In this document: positions 28,604 through 38,806 of the stretch, piece by piece
How positions within the stretch are numbered: the first letter of the stretch is position 1
Layout of the letters: each line of letters starts with the position of its first letter
DNA from: a virus
Strand: one strand, 5' to 3'
Virus record (IMG/VR): IMGVR_UViG_3300037245_000565
Coordinates: 1-41,607 of that record
Length of the DNA stretch: 41,607 bases
Program-made: the position numbers and the translations under genes
Notes under the pieces: generated by a model
What the model was told of the DNA's origin: nothing
The model's input: only the letters and a program-made list of their open reading frames with translations
Database searches by the model: none

Positions 28604-30697
28604 TTAGACTATAACCTCTTCCAGACTAACACCTGTACTCGTAGCAACGAAATTCAATATGATGTATCTAATACCCTTAACAGGTTTGATCAAGATTGAG
28701 CATAGTAACTCACCACGATCAATAACTTCTGGTGTATTATTCGATTCATCACATATAATTTTGAATTCTAGAATACCACCCTTCACCTGTACTTCAGTGA
28801 ATGTTGGGGTAATCTGGTCAACGAAACGCTGACGTGTAATAGAATTGTTACCCTCGAAAAGGTAATACTTCGACACTTTACGTGTTGCACGTTCAATTCT
28901 TAAGAACATTCTACGAACATTGATTGAATCAAATGCTGAAGGTTTAGTCTGAAGAGTTTTATCACCATTGATGATAATACCATCAAATGGAGATGAAATG
29001 AACGGGTTCATCGCTTTAGTGAAGATTGAATCCTGTTGTTTACCGTTTGGATTGAATGCAATATCATTGATATTAGAAACAACACCACGGTTCCAACCAG
29101 CTGGAGCCATCCAGTAATTAGAGATTCTATCTGTGTAAATGTATACACCGTTTGCTGTAATCGATGGTGGTAACCAGAACATTTCACCAGTGAAATCGTC
29201 CAATTTTTTACCCCATATTGGATACATTGCACCATAAGATGAATTTAATCCAGTGATATATTTCAATTTAGGAATAATATTGGTGTCAATTGTATTGGTT
29301 GGAGCACTTGGTCTAACAATTTTTTGGTTACCTTCGATTGCTAGGTTACGAGGTCCATCAATAATCGCCATACAATCTTTACGGGTAGTCTGACAGAATG
29401 TAATCATTTTCTGTGCAACACTTCTCCACGTATCAGCATCAGAACGACTATCAAGTGTCCATGCTGATGCACCTGTTGATGATGGGTCATATACTATAGC
29501 ATCCGTATTTCCACCATCACTACAGTATGAAGCGATTGTAGTTAATCCAGCATCAACAATTTGGTCAATTTCAACATCATCGATGTTGTTTAGTTTTCCA
29601 TAGATTATATCCAAACCAGTTGTAATGGTTGATGTCTTGATTTTTTTAGCCATTTGTTCAGTAGTGAAACCGAATACATCAGCATCAACAGCTTTGATCG
29701 AATATAATTCAGCATTGTCACTTACCAGATTGGTAGTAACGTTTGAGTATAAGTCAATGTAATTCGAACTTGAGTTGATGATGTTATCAATAAATGTTGA
29801 ATCACCAGTACCAACGTTGATTGCTGAAGGATTCAATGAACCAACAAATGTCTCAACGATAGATGATGTGATTTTATTATTGTTATCAGAATCAACAAAC
29901 TGTCTGATCACCGAAACAGAGATCTGATGTAGGAACTCTGGATCAAGATCACCGTCATCAGTCAACGTAACAGCTGGGAACAGATATGCAGTTCTAGACG
30001 ATAGAGATGATTCTGTTGTACCTGATGTGTAATAAGACTCAGTTGTATCATCAACAATTAAACCACCAGATGTAGTTGCAGAAGATACTGAATACCAATC
30101 TGTTACATCACCTTCAAGAAGATCCTGTAATGGTAGAGCATTATATGCAGTGTTGACTACAACGAATGTACCAACGGTTTCATTACCTAGATTGTCGTCA
30201 GATAATGTTTGACGGGTTTTATCGATAACAACAAATGTGTCAACATCTGGTTTAGTTGCACCTGTACGATATGAATCAAGAGCAGATAATGCGATTGAAC
30301 CATTACTTGTAATAGTCAATTCTGATTCAGCTGATAAACTGTAATCAGCATATGCTGATAAAACCTCACCAGACAGTGCCTTAGTTCCACCAACGGTGAA
30401 TATTGTCTTCATATACGTATCTGTAACAGTGTTGTTATAAGGTAGTTTGGCTACAATAGTTTTACCATTCTGGGTGATTGATTCAAGTATGCTGTTATAA
30501 AAATAACGTTCAGCTTCATTGGTAGGTTTACCGAAGTATGTCAATACTGACGTTCTTGATGTGAATTCCAACGGTAGGTAATCTTCACCTTTATCAGCAA
30601 ACCCAACAGTTAATGAGGTAGTACCCGCAATAGCTGGATTATACTGCGATAGATCAGTTTCGTTAAATTCAACATCTGGGTGTTGTATAGTTCTCAT
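28604..30697 (-). CDS. Tail sheath protein, gp18-type
   Basis: A 697-residue protein, close to T4 gp18 (659). It forms the contractile sheath. The start MRTIQHPDVEFNETDLSQYN and the following TSLTVGFADKGEDYLPLEFTSR match sheath N-termini. The C-terminal part (QQDSIFTKAMNPFISSPFDGI, INVRRMFLRIERATRK, NNSITRQRFVDQITPTF, KIICDESNNTPEVIDRGELL) is the conserved domain that builds the helical mesh. The intervening residues about 120-350 are the variable outer domain. The Shine-Dalgarno AAGGAGA lies 8 nt upstream, with a late promoter at 30745-30752. A hairpin follows the stop. Confidence 0.95.
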   Translation of the reverse strand: MRTIQHPDVEFNETDLSQYNPAIAGTTSLTVGFADKGEDYLPLEFTSRTSVLTYFGKPTNEAERYFYNSILESITQNGKTIVAKLPYNNTVTDTYMKTIFTVGGTKALSGEVLSAYADYSLSAESELTITSNGSIALSALDSYRTGATKPDVDTFVVIDKTRQTLSDDNLGNETVGTFVVVNTAYNALPLQDLLEGDVTDWYSVSSATTSGGLIVDDTTESYYTSGTTESSLSSRTAYLFPAVTLTDDGDLDPEFLHQISVSVIRQFVDSDNNNKITSSIVETFVGSLNPSAINVGTGDSTFIDNIINSSSNYIDLYSNVTTNLVSDNAELYSIKAVDADVFGFTTEQMAKKIKTSTITTGLDIIYGKLNNIDDVEIDQIVDAGLTTIASYCSDGGNTDAIVYDPSSTGASAWTLDSRSDADTWRSVAQKMITFCQTTRKDCMAIIDGPRNLAIEGNQKIVRPSAPTNTIDTNIIPKLKYITGLNSSYGAMYPIWGKKLDDFTGEMFWLPPSITANGVYIYTDRISNYWMAPAGWNRGVVSNINDIAFNPNGKQQDSIFTKAMNPFISSPFDGIIINGDKTLQTKPSAFDSINVRRMFLRIERATRKVSKYYLFEGNNSITRQRFVDQITPTFTEVQVKGGILEFKIICDESNNTPEVIDRGELLCSILIKPVKGIRYIILNFVATSTGVSLEEVIV

Positions 30698-30744
30698 GTA
30701 TTATTTCTCCTTATTTACCATTAGTATATATAAATCTTCATTTC

Positions 30745-30752
30745 TATTTATA
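30745..30752 (-). promoter_or_regulatory. T4-type late promoter TATAAATA (sheath)
   Basis: Exact TATAAATA on the reverse strand, 48 bp upstream of the sheath ATG at 30697. Confidence 0.8.
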
Positions 30753-30779
30753 CTTTAACCAAACGTGTGACATACTACA

Positions 30780-31305
30780 TGGTCATCGGATTAATAATTG
30801 CTGATAAATCACAATTGTCAATCTAGTTGATTGTTTCGCCCTATGGCGATTTAGAACATTATTTTTTGAATTATTAATAAGTTGTGATTGGTGAATAAAT
30901 AACATGGAATGGAAATCATCCGGTATTTGTTTGGACACAGAAAGACCTATAGGGAATTGGAGTAATAACCTATAACATTATATATCATATAGTATTCATC
31001 AGATAGCTTACAGGTTTCCATCGGTACACAGTGGCGGTTAATCTCCCCGCTCCTCCGGCAAAAAACTACTTGGTACTTATATTTCTTACTTTAACACCCT
31101 GTTGGTCATCCGTATAATTGTTACTTGTATTCGAATTGTTAAAAGCTTTTTTGGGTGCGGTTAGGAGATTCATAACCCATATGCTTTAACAGACCTCACC
31201 TTTCGGTCTCCGTTTAGTTTCTTGAATAGGTGGTAACCTATCGTCGTTTACCGCTTGCTCTGATGCTTAGTCAATATCATCGTCACTATATATAATATAC
31301 TCATA
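30780..31305 (-). ncRNA. Candidate large structured RNA (about 520 nt), late-expressed
   Basis: This is the only gene-free stretch over 300 bp. A late promoter at 31312-31319 would start transcription near 31305, with no protein gene before the sheath promoter. The predicted RNA has many stems: ATAGGT/ACCTAT (31241-31236 with 31231-31226); AGACC/GGTCT (31209-31205 with 31195-31191); GGTTA/TAACC (31177-31173 with 31163-31159); GCGG/CCGC (31050-31047 with 31037-31034); AACCTGTAA/TTATAGGTT (31016-31008 with 30975-30967, 9 bp, one G-U); TCGCC-ATAG-GGCGA (30849-30836); CAATC/GATTG (30833-30829 with 30823-30819); and two interlocked pairings near the end (pseudoknot). Parts are GC-richer than neighbouring DNA. 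Ends are approximate. No tRNA, tmRNA or group I intron was recognised; ROOL- or GOLLD-type large phage RNAs are possibilities of similar size. Confidence 0.5.
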
Positions 31306-31311
31306 AATTTT

Positions 31312-31319
31312 TATTTATA
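31312..31319 (-). promoter_or_regulatory. T4-type late promoter TATAAATA (upstream of RNA region)
   Basis: Exact TATAAATA on the reverse strand, 615 bp upstream of the sheath gene, with no open reading frame of note between it and the next late promoter at 30752. It is divergent from the uvsY promoter about 30 bp away. Confidence 0.65.
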
Positions 31320-31347
31320 CACATTTATTTTTAATTATTTTTATTAT

Positions 31348-31375
31348 TGGACATCTGGTTGATTTGGTGTATAAT
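31348..31375 (+). promoter_or_regulatory. Sigma70-like promoter for uvsY
   Basis: TGGACA (31348-31353, five of six bases of the -35 consensus), a 16-bp spacer and a perfect TATAAT (31370-31375). The expected transcription start (about 31381-31383) coincides with the uvsY ATG. No late element or recognisable MotA box is present, so expression is probably early or middle. Confidence 0.6.
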
Positions 31376-31380
31376 ACTAT

Positions 31381-31827
31381 ATGGATAATAATAAAACAAA
31401 AATTAAAGCGAATGTTGAGTTAATCAATAAACCAATCAATGAATATTACGGTGAGTTATCTGATGACATGAGTGTTACCATATTCAACTTACGTGATCGA
31501 TCATTATCGGTATCAGCTATCCGTGCGAAATGGTTGATGTACTTCTTCAAGGAGAAGGAAAATATGAAACGTCTAACCGATGCTAAATCAAAAGCGGTTG
31601 GGATACTATTAGACAAGTACAATAAAGATCCATCTAAACGTTCAATCATAAATAAGAAACTCGAAGATGAGATTAATGATACCAATCCAAAGATGATCAG
31701 ACTTAATCAGAAAATAGTCGATACCAAAGAAGTTGTGCAATTTCTTGAATTTTCTATAAATATCATGAATGACTATGGCTTTACGGTTAAGAACGCGATT
31801 GACGCATTGAAATTAGAACAAGTTTAA
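31381..31827 (+). CDS. uvsY: UvsY-like recombination mediator
   Basis: A 148-residue protein. In T4, UvsY (137 residues) loads the UvsX recombinase onto single-stranded DNA covered by gp32. The match is by pattern: AIRAKWLMYFFKEK (residues 46-59) corresponds to the 'YSKWLNKH' region, followed by KAVGILLDKY, then a C-terminal helix pair KEVVQFLEFSINIMNDYGFTVKNAIDAL paralleling T4's '..GILLDFCSGALDAIKSRGFAIKHIQDM' arrangement. The adjacent UvsW gene strengthens the call. There is no Shine-Dalgarno before the ATG, and the promoter position implies a leaderless or nearly leaderless mRNA. The 20 N-terminal residues exceed the T4 protein, so a later start is not excluded. Confidence 0.75.
   Translation: MDNNKTKIKANVELINKPINEYYGELSDDMSVTIFNLRDRSLSVSAIRAKWLMYFFKEKENMKRLTDAKSKAVGILLDKYNKDPSKRSIINKKLEDEINDTNPKMIRLNQKIVDTKEVVQFLEFSINIMNDYGFTVKNAIDALKLEQV
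31755..31762 (+). promoter_or_regulatory. T4-type late promoter TATAAATA inside uvsY, for uvsW
   Basis: Exact TATAAATA on the forward strand, 68 bp upstream of the uvsW ATG. T4 uvsW is known to be a late gene while uvsY is middle, so the position makes biological sense. Confidence 0.6.
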
Positions 31828-31830
31828 TTT

Positions 31831-33378
31831 ATGATTGAGATTATTTATGAAGGTGATGAGTACTGTAGATTAAAGTCTGAAACCCTAGAGGGTATCAGTC
31901 CGATAATCAAAGCTTTCTCTGTAGATGATCCAAGTGTATTTTTCGCTGAACAGCATGGGTATAAACCAGCCAACACCAAATTGAGTGTTATTTCAGCTGT
32001 CGGTCTTTTTCGTCTGGGTATTTTTCCTCGTATTTATCAATTATGTAAAGACCTGTACGGTAAGGATAACATACGGGTTGATCCTGAACTTGTCAAGCAC
32101 TTATTACCATTAAAACGGTTCGATATAAATTATACAAACCCTATCATCATTCCCGCATTTAAATTGAGTGAGGAAATGGAGGAACGGGATTACCAGATCC
32201 ATTCAGTAAGGCAGATGTTGAAATATGGACGGGGGTTGTTATCAATACCGACTCGTGGTGGTAAATCAATTATCGCTGGACTTTTCATTTGGAATATGAT
32301 ATGTCAGATGAATACTCAACATACACTGATTCTGGTTCCAAGCGTTCAGTTGGTTCATCAGTTCCATAAAGACCTGATCAAATTTGGGTACAATGAAAAT
32401 CAAGTTTCGAAGTTCACAGCAAAGGGTGGAACGAGTGATCACAAAACAATCATCATCAGTAATAAACAATATCTATTGAAACATCGTGATGAATTACCTG
32501 AGATTGGTTGTGTTATAGCCGATGAGGTTCATGAAATAAAAGAGGGTAGTAAGACATTCAGTTATATTGAAAGTCTGAAAACACCATTCAAGTTTGGGTG
32601 CAGTGGTTCAATACCTAAAATAACGGAAGATAAACCAGTGAAGACGCATCAGCGGTGGTGTCTCGAATCATTATTCGGTTGTGTTGTCAGTAAGAAGACG
32701 ATCAAAGAACTTCAGGATGAGGGTTATATCGCAAATCTGAAGATAAAGCATATCCACATTATTGACCGTGATATTGAGAAATTCCCAAACAGATATAAAT
32801 TCGCTATCGATTCAAAATTTCATGAAGAGGGTGACAAATTCAATACAGCATATAATGATGAACTTGAGTATTTCAAGAATAATGCTATACGGTTATATTC
32901 CAAACCAATTAAGATGCTTCCAAAACTTAAAGGAAACACGTTGGTGTTGTTTGACCGGATTGAGTTTGGTAAATCGGTATTTGATTATCTGAATAAATAT
33001 ATTGATCATATTGATTCACCGAAGAATGCATTCTATATTGATGGACATGTCGATGTTGATATCCGTGAGGATATTCGGGTATCAAGTGAGGACTGTGATG
33101 ATAATATCATTATGGCACAAACTAGGACGTTCAGTACTGGTTTAACCATCAATAACCTACATAATGTCGTATTTATGTTTAACTCAAAGGCCGAAGCTAC
33201 TATATTACAGTCTATTGGACGATCACTTGGTATACATGAGAGTAAGGTGTTTGCGTACCTATATGATATCAGTTTCAATACGAAGTACGCTACAAAGCAG
33301 TATATGGAGCGTTTATTGACGTATGAAGACGAATACCATAAAACTAAACCAGATAAAGAGATCGTACTATATATTTAA
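31831..33378 (+). CDS. uvsW: UvsW-like helicase (SF2 RNA/DNA recombination helicase)
   Basis: A 515-residue superfamily 2 helicase, near T4 UvsW (503). In T4 it unwinds R-loops, migrates branched DNA, and switches replication from origin-dependent to recombination-dependent. Motifs in order: YQIHSVRQML (121-130, Q-like), PTRGGKS (140-146, Walker A), ADEVHE (230-235, DEAH-type box), GCSGS (256-260, motif III), TRTFSTGLTI (431-440, motif V), and QSIGRSLG (460-467, motif VI). The N-terminal 110 residues correspond to the UvsW-specific domain. It starts 3 bp after uvsY with no clear Shine-Dalgarno, so translation is probably coupled. It ends overlapping the convergent 148-residue gene by 4 bp. 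Confidence 0.9.
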   Translation: MIEIIYEGDEYCRLKSETLEGISPIIKAFSVDDPSVFFAEQHGYKPANTKLSVISAVGLFRLGIFPRIYQLCKDLYGKDNIRVDPELVKHLLPLKRFDINYTNPIIIPAFKLSEEMEERDYQIHSVRQMLKYGRGLLSIPTRGGKSIIAGLFIWNMICQMNTQHTLILVPSVQLVHQFHKDLIKFGYNENQVSKFTAKGGTSDHKTIIISNKQYLLKHRDELPEIGCVIADEVHEIKEGSKTFSYIESLKTPFKFGCSGSIPKITEDKPVKTHQRWCLESLFGCVVSKKTIKELQDEGYIANLKIKHIHIIDRDIEKFPNRYKFAIDSKFHEEGDKFNTAYNDELEYFKNNAIRLYSKPIKMLPKLKGNTLVLFDRIEFGKSVFDYLNKYIDHIDSPKNAFYIDGHVDVDIREDIRVSSEDCDDNIIMAQTRTFSTGLTINNLHNVVFMFNSKAEATILQSIGRSLGIHESKVFAYLYDISFNTKYATKQYMERLLTYEDEYHKTKPDKEIVLYI

Positions 33379-33821
33379 TTATCAATTACACGTGTACCGA
33401 AACCTTTACCACCATCAACCTCATATTCACCAATATCGAGTGTTTTCTTAAGTATGATGTATTTCCGATTGAATGTGTCACCCCATCCATATATACCACC
33501 ACTGACTTTAATCCATTCATCTTCAATCAGGATATCCAGTGTATCACCACCATCAGCGATAATAAAAACAACACCACCACGTTTAACCTTAAATTCCAGT
33601 GGTTCGTGATATCCGTCCAACCATTCATCTCTTGATGATATTAAAACATTATGGAATATTTCTGGTACATTACCAATAGTTGTTGCAGTATCATATTCAT
33701 ATGGTTGGGTATTTTGTTTTAAACGTATAGTCGCACCTTTATAATACACACGTGCTTCATCATCCGATGCAAATGATATAATCGAACAAAACAGTAACAT
33801 CATTATAATTATTTTTTTCAT
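33375..33821 (-). CDS. Secreted (Sec signal) late protein, unassigned
   Basis: A 148-residue protein. The first 19 residues are a clear Sec signal peptide: KK, a hydrophobic core (IIIMMLLFCSIISF), and a likely cleavage site at SFA-SD. The Cys is not in a proper lipobox (Phe precedes it), so it is probably not a lipoprotein. The mature part, about 130 residues, is beta-rich (GGVVFIIADGGDTLDILIED, KYIILKKTLDIGEYEVDGGKG). No lysis, receptor or immunity family was recognised. It has its own late promoter (33886-33893) and a leader hairpin, and its 3' end overlaps the convergent uvsW gene. It may act in the periplasm or envelope late in infection. Confidence 0.6.
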   Translation of the reverse strand: MKKIIIMMLLFCSIISFASDDEARVYYKGATIRLKQNTQPYEYDTATTIGNVPEIFHNVLISSRDEWLDGYHEPLEFKVKRGGVVFIIADGGDTLDILIEDEWIKVSGGIYGWGDTFNRKYIILKKTLDIGEYEVDGGKGFGTRVIDN

Positions 33822-33885: not shown

Positions 33886-33893
33886 TATTTATA
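33886..33893 (-). promoter_or_regulatory. T4-type late promoter TATAAATA
   Basis: Exact TATAAATA on the reverse strand, overlapping the stop of the sulfotransferase gene (33889) and 65 bp upstream of the secreted-protein ATG at 33821. Confidence 0.7.
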
Positions 33894-34518
33894 TTTTATC
33901 AAGTAATGGTTTATTCGCTCTACTGTTTTGTATGTATTTTTGTTTTCGTATTTGTATTCGATCCCATACATTACTTGCAATGTTTTTATGTGGGAACGGT
34001 ATTGATGGTATATCAACATTCAGGAATTGGCATAATTTATCCCATCCGTCACCTTCACATATATTCATTACCAGTAGATCATCTGGTCTATTTTTAAAAT
34101 ATTCAATATTTAAACTGTATTTCAAGTGTTTTTGTGATATATTATCATATTTTATTTTTTCTGGATTATATAAGTAGTTGATGTATTCTTTGTGTCCACC
34201 ACCTATTATATAATTTTTTCGTCTCCAGTGATCGACTAAACTATTAAACCAATCGTTATCGTTTCGTTCTAAAAGTATGAACTTACTGTTTGGGAATAGA
34301 TCATCGATTATATCAACATCTATATTATGCCAAGGTGCATCCTGAAATGCGTCATAGTGGTCAAATTCTCTTATAATGTTATCAACACCACCACTCCTGA
34401 AATCTTTAACGGTAGCTCTTTCCCAACCAGCCACTCTATACCCCAATAAGTCAAGAGCAACACCTAATGATGATGTACCAGTTTTACATGTCCCAATTTC
34501 GAATATTTTATTTATCAT
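33889..34518 (-). CDS. Sulfotransferase (short, P-loop type)
   Basis: A 209-residue protein predicted to transfer sulfate from PAPS to an acceptor such as a sugar. FEIGTCKTGTSSLGVALDLL (residues 6-25) is the 5'-phosphosulfate-binding loop, equivalent to the 'GxxKTGTTSL' of family 4 sulfotransferases. KFILLERNDNDWFNSLVDHW (79-98) matches the 3'-phosphate-binding region 'F(I/L)LTxRDPxxWxxS', although the usual Arg-Asp becomes Arg-Asn here. The length is close to that of small phage and bacterial members. The start overlaps the upstream gene by 4 bp (ATGA). It is the last gene of the glycan cassette. The acceptor cannot be told from sequence. Confidence 0.78.
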   Translation of the reverse strand: MINKIFEIGTCKTGTSSLGVALDLLGYRVAGWERATVKDFRSGGVDNIIREFDHYDAFQDAPWHNIDVDIIDDLFPNSKFILLERNDNDWFNSLVDHWRRKNYIIGGGHKEYINYLYNPEKIKYDNISQKHLKYSLNIEYFKNRPDDLLVMNICEGDGWDKLCQFLNVDIPSIPFPHKNIASNVWDRIQIRKQKYIQNSRANKPLLDKI

Positions 34519-35432
34519 ACTTTAAAAGCCTTCTCATTCATTATTTGATGTTTCTTAAATTCATTAATACTTGAATTATTATATTCATCTAGTGATGTTA
34601 AGTCATAATCAACGTGTGATATCTTAGTTCGTATTACTGGGAAATTATCATAAGTGTTAGACATTCGAATCATCATTTTTAGATATGTCGATATCCATGA
34701 TACCGATGATATATGAATATCACCCTCATTCTTTGGATTATTTACTAAGAACTCATTGGGTTTTAATAATTGATCTAACACATCTTGATGTGGGTGGAAT
34801 AATAACACACATGGATCAATACGTGTTTTACCATCAGTTTTTACATATAAATTAGGTACAAGTGTCACCATATCATTTTTCAAGAAATTGAACATTCCTT
34901 CAGTTACCAATGCTGGTATATTTAATATAGACTGATCATATCTAGTTCTAATAACCATATCATAATCAGTTCCAGTATCTTTTACATAAGTTGAGAAAAT
35001 CTTTAATGACTCTAACATACTATATGTCTGTGATATTGCTGGATGGTTCGTGTATTTTATTCTGTTTGAATAGTCTTCTATATTATCACAGTTTAATGTT
35101 TTTGGTTTATATGTGGTTTCTATGTAATTGTCTAAATATGATTTATCCTCGATTACGCCAACGGTTGGTTTATATTGCTCCATTATATTCATGCAATCTA
35201 AATCTGTCGCAGATAATATTAAATTATCCTTATTTGATAATACATCGGAACATAGTTTATCCCAGAAAATCCTCAACGAAATACTATCCCACATATGACA
35301 AAAAACATCTATTTCTATACCATTATCATTAGCCCAATGCCTTATATATTGTAAATTGAGTAAACCCACATCCCAATATCTAGGTTCCGTACTAAAACAA
35401 ATGGCTATTCGTTTGGTTTTATTAACCACCAT
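34515..35432 (-). CDS. Putative glycosyltransferase-like protein
   Basis: A 305-residue protein. The N-terminal RIAICFSTEPRYWDVGLLNL (8-27) and DVFCHMW (42-48), the central ISQTYSMLESLKIF (133-146) and DYDMVIRTRYDQSI (156-169) match a group of uncharacterised glycosyltransferase-like proteins in viruses and bacteria that begin 'KIAICxSGQPR' and carry 'DxVIRxRxD'. The conserved Arg-x-Arg-x-Asp region is likely nucleotide-sugar/metal binding by analogy with GT-A enzymes; this is inferred. The Shine-Dalgarno is GAGGAGG, and the start overlaps the methyltransferase end by 28 bp. Situated between a methyltransferase and a sulfotransferase, which supports a role in glycan assembly. Confidence 0.6.
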   Translation of the reverse strand: MVVNKTKRIAICFSTEPRYWDVGLLNLQYIRHWANDNGIEIDVFCHMWDSISLRIFWDKLCSDVLSNKDNLILSATDLDCMNIMEQYKPTVGVIEDKSYLDNYIETTYKPKTLNCDNIEDYSNRIKYTNHPAISQTYSMLESLKIFSTYVKDTGTDYDMVIRTRYDQSILNIPALVTEGMFNFLKNDMVTLVPNLYVKTDGKTRIDPCVLLFHPHQDVLDQLLKPNEFLVNNPKNEGDIHISSVSWISTYLKMMIRMSNTYDNFPVIRTKISHVDYDLTSLDEYNNSSINEFKKHQIMNEKAFKV

Positions 35433-35914
35433 GAATTAAACTCCTCCTCGTTTTGTATTACATTGAGGTGTCTATGAAGATCACAACATACGGTAAAATC
35501 ATTAACACTGTCGTATGTTTTTTTCCAATGTTCACGGTCATAATCGTGACCGGAGAAAACACCTCCAACCTTTAATTTGGGAAACCACTCATACAACGTA
35601 CTTCCTCCGTCCTGTCCAGTGTGTGCATAACCATCTATGTAAATAAAATCAAAATAATTATTGGGGAATAATATCAAACATTCATTAAATGTTGCTCTTA
35701 AAATATTGACATGTCCTAATGTCTTGACACAGTTGTGGTATTCCTGTATGTCGTGGTGGTCATCCCATTTATCGATACCCCAAAACTCCGAAAACTTACC
35801 TGATTCAGATAAGAATTTACTGAATTTACCCGTAGCGACACCTAACTCGATTCCGACTGATTTTTCATGTAATAGTTCAGTTAAACCTAACCTACTTTCT
35901 AGTAATTTTGTCAT
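35405..35914 (-). CDS. Class I SAM-dependent methyltransferase
   Basis: A 169-residue protein with a Rossmann-type methyltransferase core. Motif I is GIELGVATGKFSKFL (21-35), the acidic residue ending strand 2 is in FWGIDKWD (44-51), and strand 4/5 motifs are FDFIYIDGYAHTGQDGG (88-104) and LKVGGVFSGHDYD (114-126). This layout resembles Methyltransf_24/TylF-like enzymes, which often O-methylate sugars and may use a metal. It overlaps both neighbours (4 bp ATGA with the DUF6473 gene, 28 bp downstream), so it belongs to the cassette operon. A sugar or protein-glycan acceptor is inferred from context. Confidence 0.8.
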   Translation of the reverse strand: MTKLLESRLGLTELLHEKSVGIELGVATGKFSKFLSESGKFSEFWGIDKWDDHHDIQEYHNCVKTLGHVNILRATFNECLILFPNNYFDFIYIDGYAHTGQDGGSTLYEWFPKLKVGGVFSGHDYDREHWKKTYDSVNDFTVCCDLHRHLNVIQNEEEFNSWWLIKPNE

Positions 35915-36717
35915 ATGATACTCTTTATTATTGGTTTAAGGATGTTAAAAATAACACCATGTTGCTCTGGTGTTGGGTAATATGTGTTTTTGATTATACC
36001 ATCCAGTGTCATCTTGGGTAAAATCTGTGGATAACCCAATGTACCACAATATTCAGCATAGTGTTCAGTCATACCTTTCAATGTGTTTATGGTTGGTTCG
36101 TTGATAAATTGAGGAAAACCCCTAAATATACCAACCCGTGTCTTATACTCTAATGGATCACATGGTTCACGATGACCTATATATAACAAAACTACTGGTA
36201 CTTTAATTTTTTCGATGAGGTGCTTATATCCCATTACATAAGTATGTAATGTCTCCTCGATTAATTGTTTGATCTCAGCTTCATTATAGTTATTTAAACA
36301 GAACTCCCAAAACTCACCCGCATTTTGTGTCTCGCCATTATCCAAATTGGTACCATTGAACCTACCTTCGGTTTGGAACTTAGAATTTGATTCACTCCTA
36401 GCTGACATTACCTGCAATATACATAATTTAGATTTATTTATGATATCGATATTTTCTGTAAAGACTTCATTTGATGCACTCTTACCACCAGAACTTATAT
36501 TAAATACTTCTACCCCCATGTTTTTTTGTATTAATATGGGAAATGGTTCTTCACAGAAACGTCCAAATGTACCAGCACTTCCAACACATGATATATATTG
36601 GTCTGATTCGGGTTTAGGTCCACGGAAAAAACATCCACGGAAATTGAATATATCATAATCTATGAAATCGTCATAGTATTGATACCCAGTGTTTGATTTA
36701 CCTGTTACCTTTTCCAT
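35911..36717 (-). CDS. DUF6473 protein
   Basis: A 268-residue protein. Residues 12-75 carry the DUF6473 pattern: YQYYDDFIDYDIFNFRGCFF near the start, FRGPKPESDQYISCVGSAGTFGRFCEEPFP-type sequence in the middle, then FNISSGGKSASNEVF. From what I recall of this family, members occur next to sulfotransferases in marine proteobacteria and phage-like contexts, and the SAGTFGR/NISSGGK segments resemble SGNH-hydrolase blocks; catalysis is unproven. Its ATG immediately follows the upstream sulfotransferase stop, and its TGA overlaps the methyltransferase ATG, so expression is coupled. It may process or recognise the sulfated glycan. Confidence 0.65.
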   Translation of the reverse strand: MEKVTGKSNTGYQYYDDFIDYDIFNFRGCFFRGPKPESDQYISCVGSAGTFGRFCEEPFPILIQKNMGVEVFNISSGGKSASNEVFTENIDIINKSKLCILQVMSARSESNSKFQTEGRFNGTNLDNGETQNAGEFWEFCLNNYNEAEIKQLIEETLHTYVMGYKHLIEKIKVPVVLLYIGHREPCDPLEYKTRVGIFRGFPQFINEPTINTLKGMTEHYAEYCGTLGYPQILPKMTLDGIIKNTYYPTPEQHGVIFNILKPIIKSII

Positions 36718-37551
36718 TTACACTCCGTATTTGTATCCAAACAATGTTATATCTTGATTGAACGTTTCATTAACGAATTTTATCGACTTACCGTTATAAT
36801 ATTCGGTATAATTTTTGACCGTTTCATCAGATACATTAAGTTTAACTTCACTACTCAGATCAATATCAAGTATAGTTGAAATTCGGTCAATTTCTATGTT
36901 GTAATTCTCAAATCTAGCGATATAATTAGTAACCAGTTCACCAGTTTTTGATAATATGTAATTACATTGATTCACATCAGGGTTTAAAAAAGACCTATAT
37001 AAACCAATATGTTCATGTGCATTACATATAAAATCATTGAAATTGTCTTTGGTTGTTCGTTTCGCAACTTCTTCATCCCAGTCAAGGTCTTCGTTCCATA
37101 TACGTGCAACCTCTTCGATTACGATCTTATTCTTGAATATTGAAAAGACATAATCCCACGGGTTTCGTATGAATGCGAATCTGAAATAACCATCATATAA
37201 ACCTTTGTGGTTTAATAGAGACGTTGAATGACGTTTGTTTTCATGGAGAACGATATGTGGACCAAGACCTTCATGGAACATATTCAACCATCTAATTTTA
37301 TCTGGGTTTTTTCTGTAGAATAGGTTTATATCATCCTGTGGCATCGAATTGTAACAATCAACAACACATGAATCAATTTCAGATATATTTTCAACTTCTG
37401 GATAATGTTGTTCAAGAAGGTCAACAAGTTCTTTCAATTTTTCATACTTGTTATAATTGTTGCTATACCTAGATAATAGGTATGTAAATGATGTACCACC
37501 AGTCTTCGGTATATGAAAATAAATAAATTTATGTGAATCTGAAATAATCAT
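36718..37551 (-). CDS. Sulfotransferase (family 2-like)
   Basis: A 277-residue protein predicted to move sulfate from PAPS to a carbohydrate. FIYFHIPKTGGTSF (9-22) is the 5'-phosphosulfate-binding loop of the carbohydrate sulfotransferase group, and FRFAFIRNPWDYVFSIF (123-139) contains the 3'-phosphate-binding Arg and the downstream Ser. HxNKRHSTSL before it is typical as well. The start at 37551 gives an ATGA overlap with the glycosyltransferase stop and a GGTGGA ribosome-binding site; an ATG nine bases upstream is less well placed. The two sulfotransferases in the cassette belong to different subfamilies, so they probably act on different positions or acceptors. Confidence 0.82.
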   Translation of the reverse strand: MIISDSHKFIYFHIPKTGGTSFTYLLSRYSNNYNKYEKLKELVDLLEQHYPEVENISEIDSCVVDCYNSMPQDDINLFYRKNPDKIRWLNMFHEGLGPHIVLHENKRHSTSLLNHKGLYDGYFRFAFIRNPWDYVFSIFKNKIVIEEVARIWNEDLDWDEEVAKRTTKDNFNDFICNAHEHIGLYRSFLNPDVNQCNYILSKTGELVTNYIARFENYNIEIDRISTILDIDLSSEVKLNVSDETVKNYTEYYNGKSIKFVNETFNQDITLFGYKYGV

Positions 37552-38768
37552 TTGAAGCATTCCACCATTTTTTTTATATTTTTATCATTGCTGAAATTAT
37601 CATTGACCATCTGTACACACTCATCAGACATGTCCATATATTCTAATATATCCAAATCGTATATTTTATCCATCCTATCGAAAATCATGTCAACATCACC
37701 CTCATTGGTGGTATACCCAGTCACACCATCGATTATAATCTCAGGTATACCGGAATAGTTTGTACCAATACATGGTGTACCCATTGACATACTTTCAATG
37801 AAGAATGTTGGTAATCCCTCTTTATCACCTGTATCAGTTGTAGTTGATGCTAAAATTGATAAACTCGCGTATTGTATGTATGACATAATTATTTTATTTT
37901 CAACATGTCCAACAAAATGTACGAAGTCACCCAAATCTAGATCACTAACTAACTGTTTAAGTTCGGCATCTAATGTACCACAACCAGCGATAATATAATG
38001 AACTTCTGGGTATTTATCATGTAATTTTTTGAATGCGGTGATCGAATGTTTATAACCCTTCATCTCAATTAATCTACCAGCACTGAAGATGTATTCAAAT
38101 AGTGGTATATCATTTCGTTTCATATTGGGTTTGATATCGGAGTAGTTGACCCGTTTTATGATCACTTTATCACCAGAGACACCGAAATTATCAATTATAT
38201 ATTTTTTATTGTATTCGGAAATAGTGAAAATCCTTTTAGCTAAAGCTGATTTCAATTTCTTATAACCCTTCATACAGAATAAATCATAGGCATGTGTGTT
38301 GAAAAAGAATGGGATACTCGTATTCCAATATATGAACATACAAATATCAGCACCAAGTTGACCAAACGGTGAGTATAACTTGGTCACACCATCGGATATT
38401 ACCTTCTCACAAATTGAACAGAATGGATCTCGTGAATTTACTAATGCCATGAATTCAGTATCTTGTCGATCCTTATCGGATAGGTCGTCCAAATCACGCA
38501 TATATTTGTTAGTAGATAGGGGTATCTGGTGTTTATCGATTTCACCCCAGTTGAATAACCCTTCATGCTGTAGATATGTGATATTGTCACCGATTATTTC
38601 CAACGCTTCAGTATAAAGATCCATTTCTTCATCGGTTGGTTTACTCATTGAGTATATTTTTACATCTATACCCGAATTGATAAGCTCTACAATCTCATTC
38701 ACTACGAACGTATTAGTACGTTCTGGGAATTTATACACAAATACACCTAAAACTATTTTATCATTCAT
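37548..38768 (-). CDS. Group 1 (GT4) glycosyltransferase
   Basis: A 406-residue GT-B enzyme of the GT4 family that adds a sugar from a nucleotide-sugar donor with retention of configuration. The N-terminal VFVYKFPERTNTFVVNEIVE is typical of the WcaL/colanic-acid-type subgroup ('FP..TETFV..EI'). The C-terminal Rossmann half starts at FSAGRLIEMKGYKHSI, includes YIIAGCGTLDAELK and ends with the EX7E motif EGLPTFFIE (317-325) followed by MGTPCIGTNYSGIPEII. The start at 38768 was chosen because GTGAG lies 5 nt upstream; a GTG six bases earlier is possible. It is the first gene of the cassette and is preceded by a hairpin and a -10-like TATAAT. Acceptor unknown. Confidence 0.85.
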   Translation of the reverse strand: MNDKIVLGVFVYKFPERTNTFVVNEIVELINSGIDVKIYSMSKPTDEEMDLYTEALEIIGDNITYLQHEGLFNWGEIDKHQIPLSTNKYMRDLDDLSDKDRQDTEFMALVNSRDPFCSICEKVISDGVTKLYSPFGQLGADICMFIYWNTSIPFFFNTHAYDLFCMKGYKKLKSALAKRIFTISEYNKKYIIDNFGVSGDKVIIKRVNYSDIKPNMKRNDIPLFEYIFSAGRLIEMKGYKHSITAFKKLHDKYPEVHYIIAGCGTLDAELKQLVSDLDLGDFVHFVGHVENKIIMSYIQYASLSILASTTTDTGDKEGLPTFFIESMSMGTPCIGTNYSGIPEIIIDGVTGYTTNEGDVDMIFDRMDKIYDLDILEYMDMSDECVQMVNDNFSNDKNIKKMVECFK

Positions 38769-38806
38769 AAGCACTCACATTAACTGTTAATCTATATTAT
38801 ACGTGA

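Follow-up and report, generated by a model that had tools for sequence, protein, structure and literature searches.

What occupies the long gap between the uvsY and tail sheath genes of this phage? In the window (the whole stretch of 41,607 nucleotides analyzed here, positions 1 to 41,607 of IMG/VR record IMGVR_UViG_3300037245_000565), the tail sheath gene lies on the (-) strand at 28604..30697 (phrog_23 match, E 3e-59) and uvsY on the (+) strand at 31381..31827 (phrog_231 match, E 4.9e-8). The intervening region, 30698-31380, measures exactly 683 bp from the sheath start at 30697 to the uvsY start at 31381 and has no recognizable gene, as an earlier note made from the sequence alone had reported. 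PHROG matches around the gap comprise UvsY, a UvsW-type helicase, the tail sheath and the tail tube, and further tail and baseplate genes are located downstream. The gap had also been described as locally GC-richer, and this is true of its middle part (about 0.41) only in comparison with its AT-rich ends (0.25–0.28), the flanking genes being at 0.35–0.40. The central proposal of the earlier note was a late-expressed, large structured RNA. On balance we favor, by a modest degree of belief, a phage-encoded structured noncoding RNA of about 450–530 nt that is situated immediately before the tail genes and has a T4-type late promoter of its own. The candidate extends over 30785..31306 on the (-) strand, divergently from uvsY; its 5' end is placed from the promoter, and it is recognized by conservation, by the lack of a conserved ORF and by the RNAalifold consensus.

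Both late promoters of the earlier note are present, the first at the position it had given. The exact T4-type motif TATAAATA is found on the (-) strand at 31312..31319, at the head of the candidate RNA, and again at 30745..30752, as a separate promoter of the tail sheath gene. The motif occurs 18 times across the window, against 8.1 ± 3.2 expected by chance. In T4 late promoters, a TATA box of 8 bp precedes the start by about one helical turn (PMC2988020), and from this spacing the transcript is expected to start near 31306; the element would thus be transcribed late from about that position. No terminator-like site was found in the uvsY-sheath gap, and therefore the transcript may continue into the tail genes.

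Two other viral contigs, L002 and L011, have the same element between the same flanking genes. In both, the late promoter TATAAATA is kept at the start of the element and a second one before the sheath gene, so that the box of a T4-type late transcription unit is conserved in the relatives. The protein genes of L002 are 83% (sheath) and 91% (uvsY) identical to those of the window, and this contig is alignable across the entire element. L011 is more distant (sheath 71%, uvsY 80%); its 5' domain is kept in blocks (ACUAAACGGAGA; CAUAUGGGUUAUGAANCUCCUAACCGCNCCCAAAAAAGC; AUUAUACGGAUGAUGACCAA), with divergence further 3'. Searching for relatives by way of sheath and uvsY alignments added only one contig, L016 (sheath 65%), in which uvsY and the sheath gene are 263 bp apart, the sheath promoter is retained and the element is absent. 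Because it is missing there despite the same two neighboring genes, the element is an optional module. The short gap of L016 (794-1058) folds far better than chance (z -4.3), contains a 10-bp hairpin, TTGGTCAGTC-TGCG-GACTGACCAA, at about 904-927, and by this predicted folding may hold a different structured element. In the Pelagibacter phage HTVC008M, the terminase gene is followed by the sheath gene after 80 bp. A blastn search of annotated phages with all three members gave short chance matches only, and in motif scans of IMG/VR viral contigs and species genomes all hits beyond the L011 and L002 contigs were judged to be chance. A covariance model of the 5' domain (R1) scored its own three members at 174–216 bits; all else, the complete ICP1 and HTVC008M records included, gave noise only.

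The window and L002 share 81% sequence identity across the element, rising to 90–95% in several blocks of 40 nt. In the same comparison, four-fold degenerate sites in the sheath, uvsY, uvsW and tube genes show an identity of only 52–61%; thus, the element is under strong selection. This selection does not seem to be for a protein. No conserved reading frame of useful length was recognized, ORFs vary in frame and length among the three members, and the longest (51 aa, GTG start) is not retained in the relatives, so that protein coding was rejected. The most conserved block of the RNA, at 31173-31145, can be read as the start of a peptide, M-N/K-L-L-T-A-P-K-K (31173-31147), in which case a short peptide gene would account for the conservation through its codons. 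In accord with this, third codon positions account for three of its four changes, and ORFs of 35, 12 and 25 aa begin at the block. However, the frames diverge after about ten codons, a clear Shine-Dalgarno sequence is lacking, and the helices H1 and H2 and the 3' part of the element (see below) would be left unexplained; we therefore regard the peptide as very improbable.

The case for RNA structure had been based on a list of stems. The stems named there exist as written, namely a 9-bp pairing of AACCUGUAA (31016-31008) with UUAUAGGUU (30975-30967) and the tetraloop hairpin UCGCC-AUAG-GGCGA (30836..30849, (-) strand). As evidence they did not hold, because the folding energy of the RNA strand over the whole region is no better than that of dinucleotide shuffles (z = +0.32), and that of the 5' domain is likewise ordinary (z +0.47 in the window, -0.02 in L002 and -1.25 in L011). 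With z near 0, folding energy was rejected as support for structure, and a list of stems by itself is no evidence. The 9-bp pairing is also not conserved, being lost in L002, whose 3' arm differs; its replacement by ACCUGUA pairing with a later, conserved UAUAGGU copy is possible, but is disfavored by the folds. The tetraloop hairpin is identical in the window and L002 and was not found in L011.

Structure was instead sought in compensatory changes, whose absence from homologous regions the earlier note had named as fatal to its idea, and such changes were found in the related phages. They were counted on a MAFFT alignment of the three members built without structure. On this structure-blind alignment, H1 and H2 together have six pairs with both sides changed. 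H1 (31261..31282, (-) strand; arms 31282-31278 and 31265-31261, with UGAC in the loop) has two pairs changed on both sides and two on one side among the three sequences, and H2 (31226..31241, (-) strand; arms 31241-31236 and 31231-31226) has four changed on both sides. In a five-helix structure, 93.2% of cells pair, compared with 22–55% when the partners are slid, and the observed covariation was equaled in one of 500 shuffles. Because these five helices had been picked with the alignment already in view, all local helices were also scanned blindly. In the three-way scan, H2 and H1 rank first and second, at about the 1–2% level. The maximum number of doubly changed pairs per helix was reached in seven of 400 column shuffles, the number of helices with at least two such pairs in three of 400, and the number with at least one in two of 400. 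RNAalifold with the three sequences gave -54.2 kcal/mol, compared with -32.5 ± 4.6 kcal/mol in shuffled columns (z -4.7).

It might be supposed that these are chance stems in an AT-rich intergenic region conserved for its promoters only. The ordinary folding energy would agree with this, as would the blind helix count for the window and L002 as a pair, which over the whole element is not above that of shuffles, so that the claim of structure rests on the three-way covariation. However, the blocks of 90–95% identity are far from both promoters, and the changes on both sides are concentrated in the top two helices of the blind three-way scan, for which reasons chance stems seem improbable. In the three members, the combination of conserved noncoding sequence and covarying helices is seen only in the 5' domain and in a single 3' hairpin, and in the middle of the element the folds of the members do not agree. 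Judged by sequence comparison, the predicted structure is firm for the 5' domain (31282-31138) and the one 3' hairpin, and tentative in the rest of the element. In short, the idea of a large structured RNA holds in outline and is partly supported, with two homologues, compensatory changes and noncoding constraint on one side and, on the other, ordinary energy and one named stem that is not conserved.

The remaining hairpins, all on the (-) strand, add detail to this outline. H3 (AGACC-GAAAGGUGA-GGUCU, 31191..31209) follows the invariant ACUAAACGGAG and recurs in the folds of the window and L002, and a different, longer hairpin occupies the place in L011. The long hairpin H4/H5 (31138..31190) is formed by GUUAAAGC (31190-31183) with GCUUUUAAC (31146-31138), with UGGG pairing with CCCA inside; its outer stem recurs in three separate folds (window, L002 and L011), and its inner stem is uninformative for covariation because it is invariant among the three sequences. 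This hairpin carries the nearly invariant GGUUAUGAANCUCCUAAC (31177-31160), in which 17 of 18 positions are identical in the three phages. The 3' hairpin (30789..30823; arms 30823-30812 and 30800-30789) has up to 12 pairs, and the five substitutions between the window and L002 retain or gain pairing (A-U to G-C, G-U to G-C, A-U to G-U, C.A to U-A). In H1 and the 3' hairpin, the four G-U against two C-A cells point only weakly to the promoter's strand. In addition, a GAUGA pentamer recurs in 31110-30785 and in the same region of L002 and L011, at places that look unpaired (ACGGAUGAUGACC, ACCGGAUGAU, CCGAUGACC), and two copies are at matching positions in all three phages; by its recurrence it could be a putative repeated binding site. 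The near-invariant loops (ACUAAACGGAG, GGUUAUGAANCUCCUAAC and the repeated GAUGA) might be the places at which the RNA is contacted by a protein or by further copies of itself.

Does the RNA work by itself or as part of the sheath message? Since there is no terminator, the chief rival explanation is a long, cis-acting 5' leader, in which transcripts from 31306 reach the sheath gene and the structure controls the stability or translation of the tail message. Besides the lack of anything resembling a terminator between the RNA and the sheath gene, this is suggested by the position of the element on the sheath strand, directly upstream of the sheath gene, in all three members. However, a conserved late promoter serves the sheath gene separately, the conserved core of the element is 400–600 nt upstream of the sheath start, and L016 manages without the element. 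We consider the leader unlikely, though deserving of attention. As the sheath gene has its own promoter, the best-conserved part lies that far upstream and the element is optional, the structured RNA probably functions on its own, as a free RNA, and not as the leader of the sheath transcript.

The location at uvsY also recalls the T4 replication origin oriF, or ori(uvsY), which is near divergent transcription and is removed by UvsW (PMC3016281). The conserved bases might then serve a DNA function, or a primer transcript, of a DNA element or R-loop origin located where uvsY/uvsW and the tail genes diverge. The two loci are alike in their position at uvsY, their link to transcription and their divergent genes; for T4 oriC, a late promoter may serve the origin (PMC3016281). 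Among the features of a T4 R-loop origin (a middle MotA promoter and an AT-rich unwinding element), an AT-rich stretch is present at 31300-31400; the promoter on this strand is of the late type. The T4 origin differs in that about 100 bp suffices, with a middle promoter and no specific sequence needed for the R-loop (PMC3016281), and an origin would lead one to expect neither paired changes in the helices H1 and H2 and in the 3' hairpin nor the absence of the element from L016. Such an origin is thus quite improbable here, and the free structured RNA remains the preferred reading.

To which family could this RNA belong? The earlier note could assign it to neither ROOL nor GOLLD; cmscan against Rfam brought no family to threshold in the window or in the three members, and a permissive Rfam search with the element in all three gave chance hits at most; one of these, sR6 (E 0.81), arose from GGAUGAUGACC. 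A resemblance to ROOL, a homo-octameric RNA cage, and to GOLLD had been suggested, and it stands for size and phage setting only, the models of both being negative in all three members. The ROOL model (RF03087) found nothing at E ≤ 10 in the records of the window, L002 and L011, and cmscan was negative too; this result rests on the model alone, since control genomes also gave no match. The GOLLD model (RF02032), which covers the conserved 3' domain, likewise had no hit at E ≤ 10 in any of these records. Like ROOL, whose model has 574 positions, the element is a large, noncoding, structured phage RNA of similar length, but ROOL is often near tRNA islands (PMC12286853), a setting often seen for GOLLD also, whereas the 41.6-kb window contains no tRNA or tmRNA genes. 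GOLLD, another large phage RNA, rises during lysis (PMC12286853), which is comparable to the late promoter here; it is different in having its best-conserved domain at the 3' end (PMC12286853), this domain being 5' in the element, and again in the tRNAs, which are absent near the element.

A further comparison is offered by the virulent phage ICP1, in which an RNA of about 800 nt between gp139 and gp140, without an assigned family, is the most abundant transcript of the phage (PMC7567579). Its region (L030 20098-21108; NC_015157 80097-81107) had no Rfam family at the gathering threshold, and the ICP1 RNA is thus likewise a large phage RNA without an assigned family, lying in a gap free of ORFs. 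It is, however, situated in the lysis cluster, and it was rejected as a relative because the R1 model did not match it. The element is best read as representing a new family of structured, late-transcribed RNAs in phages, which with three members is still narrow and is only analogous to GOLLD and ROOL.

Both GOLLD and ROOL assemble into cages of RNA, the purpose of which is unknown (PMC12286853). By analogy with them and with the abundant ICP1 RNA, the most likely mode of action of the element would be as an abundant late RNA serving as a scaffold or particle. A more specific proposal is rather doubtful, namely that it represents a new class of large phage RNA, without sequence relationship to GOLLD or ROOL, which is abundant late, forms an RNA-only or RNA-protein particle and has a role in tail or virion production. 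Few noncoding RNAs are as poorly understood as the large RNAs of phages, and a family unrelated to GOLLD and ROOL and tied to T4-type late transcription and tail genes would widen this group and provide a fresh comparison. The natural contrast between L002 and L011, which have the element, and L016, which does not, would make its role directly testable once such phages are cultured.

Two other features of the window may be mentioned. Adjoining the end of the uvsW gene, at 33375-33821 on the (-) strand, is a gene for a protein of 148 aa, which has an apparent signal peptide and matched nothing in Pfam and PHROG comparisons. The region 33889-38774 is a glycan-modification island in a T4-like phage, containing two sulfotransferases (PF17784 and PF03567), a methyltransferase, a DUF6473 protein and a group 1 glycosyltransferase.
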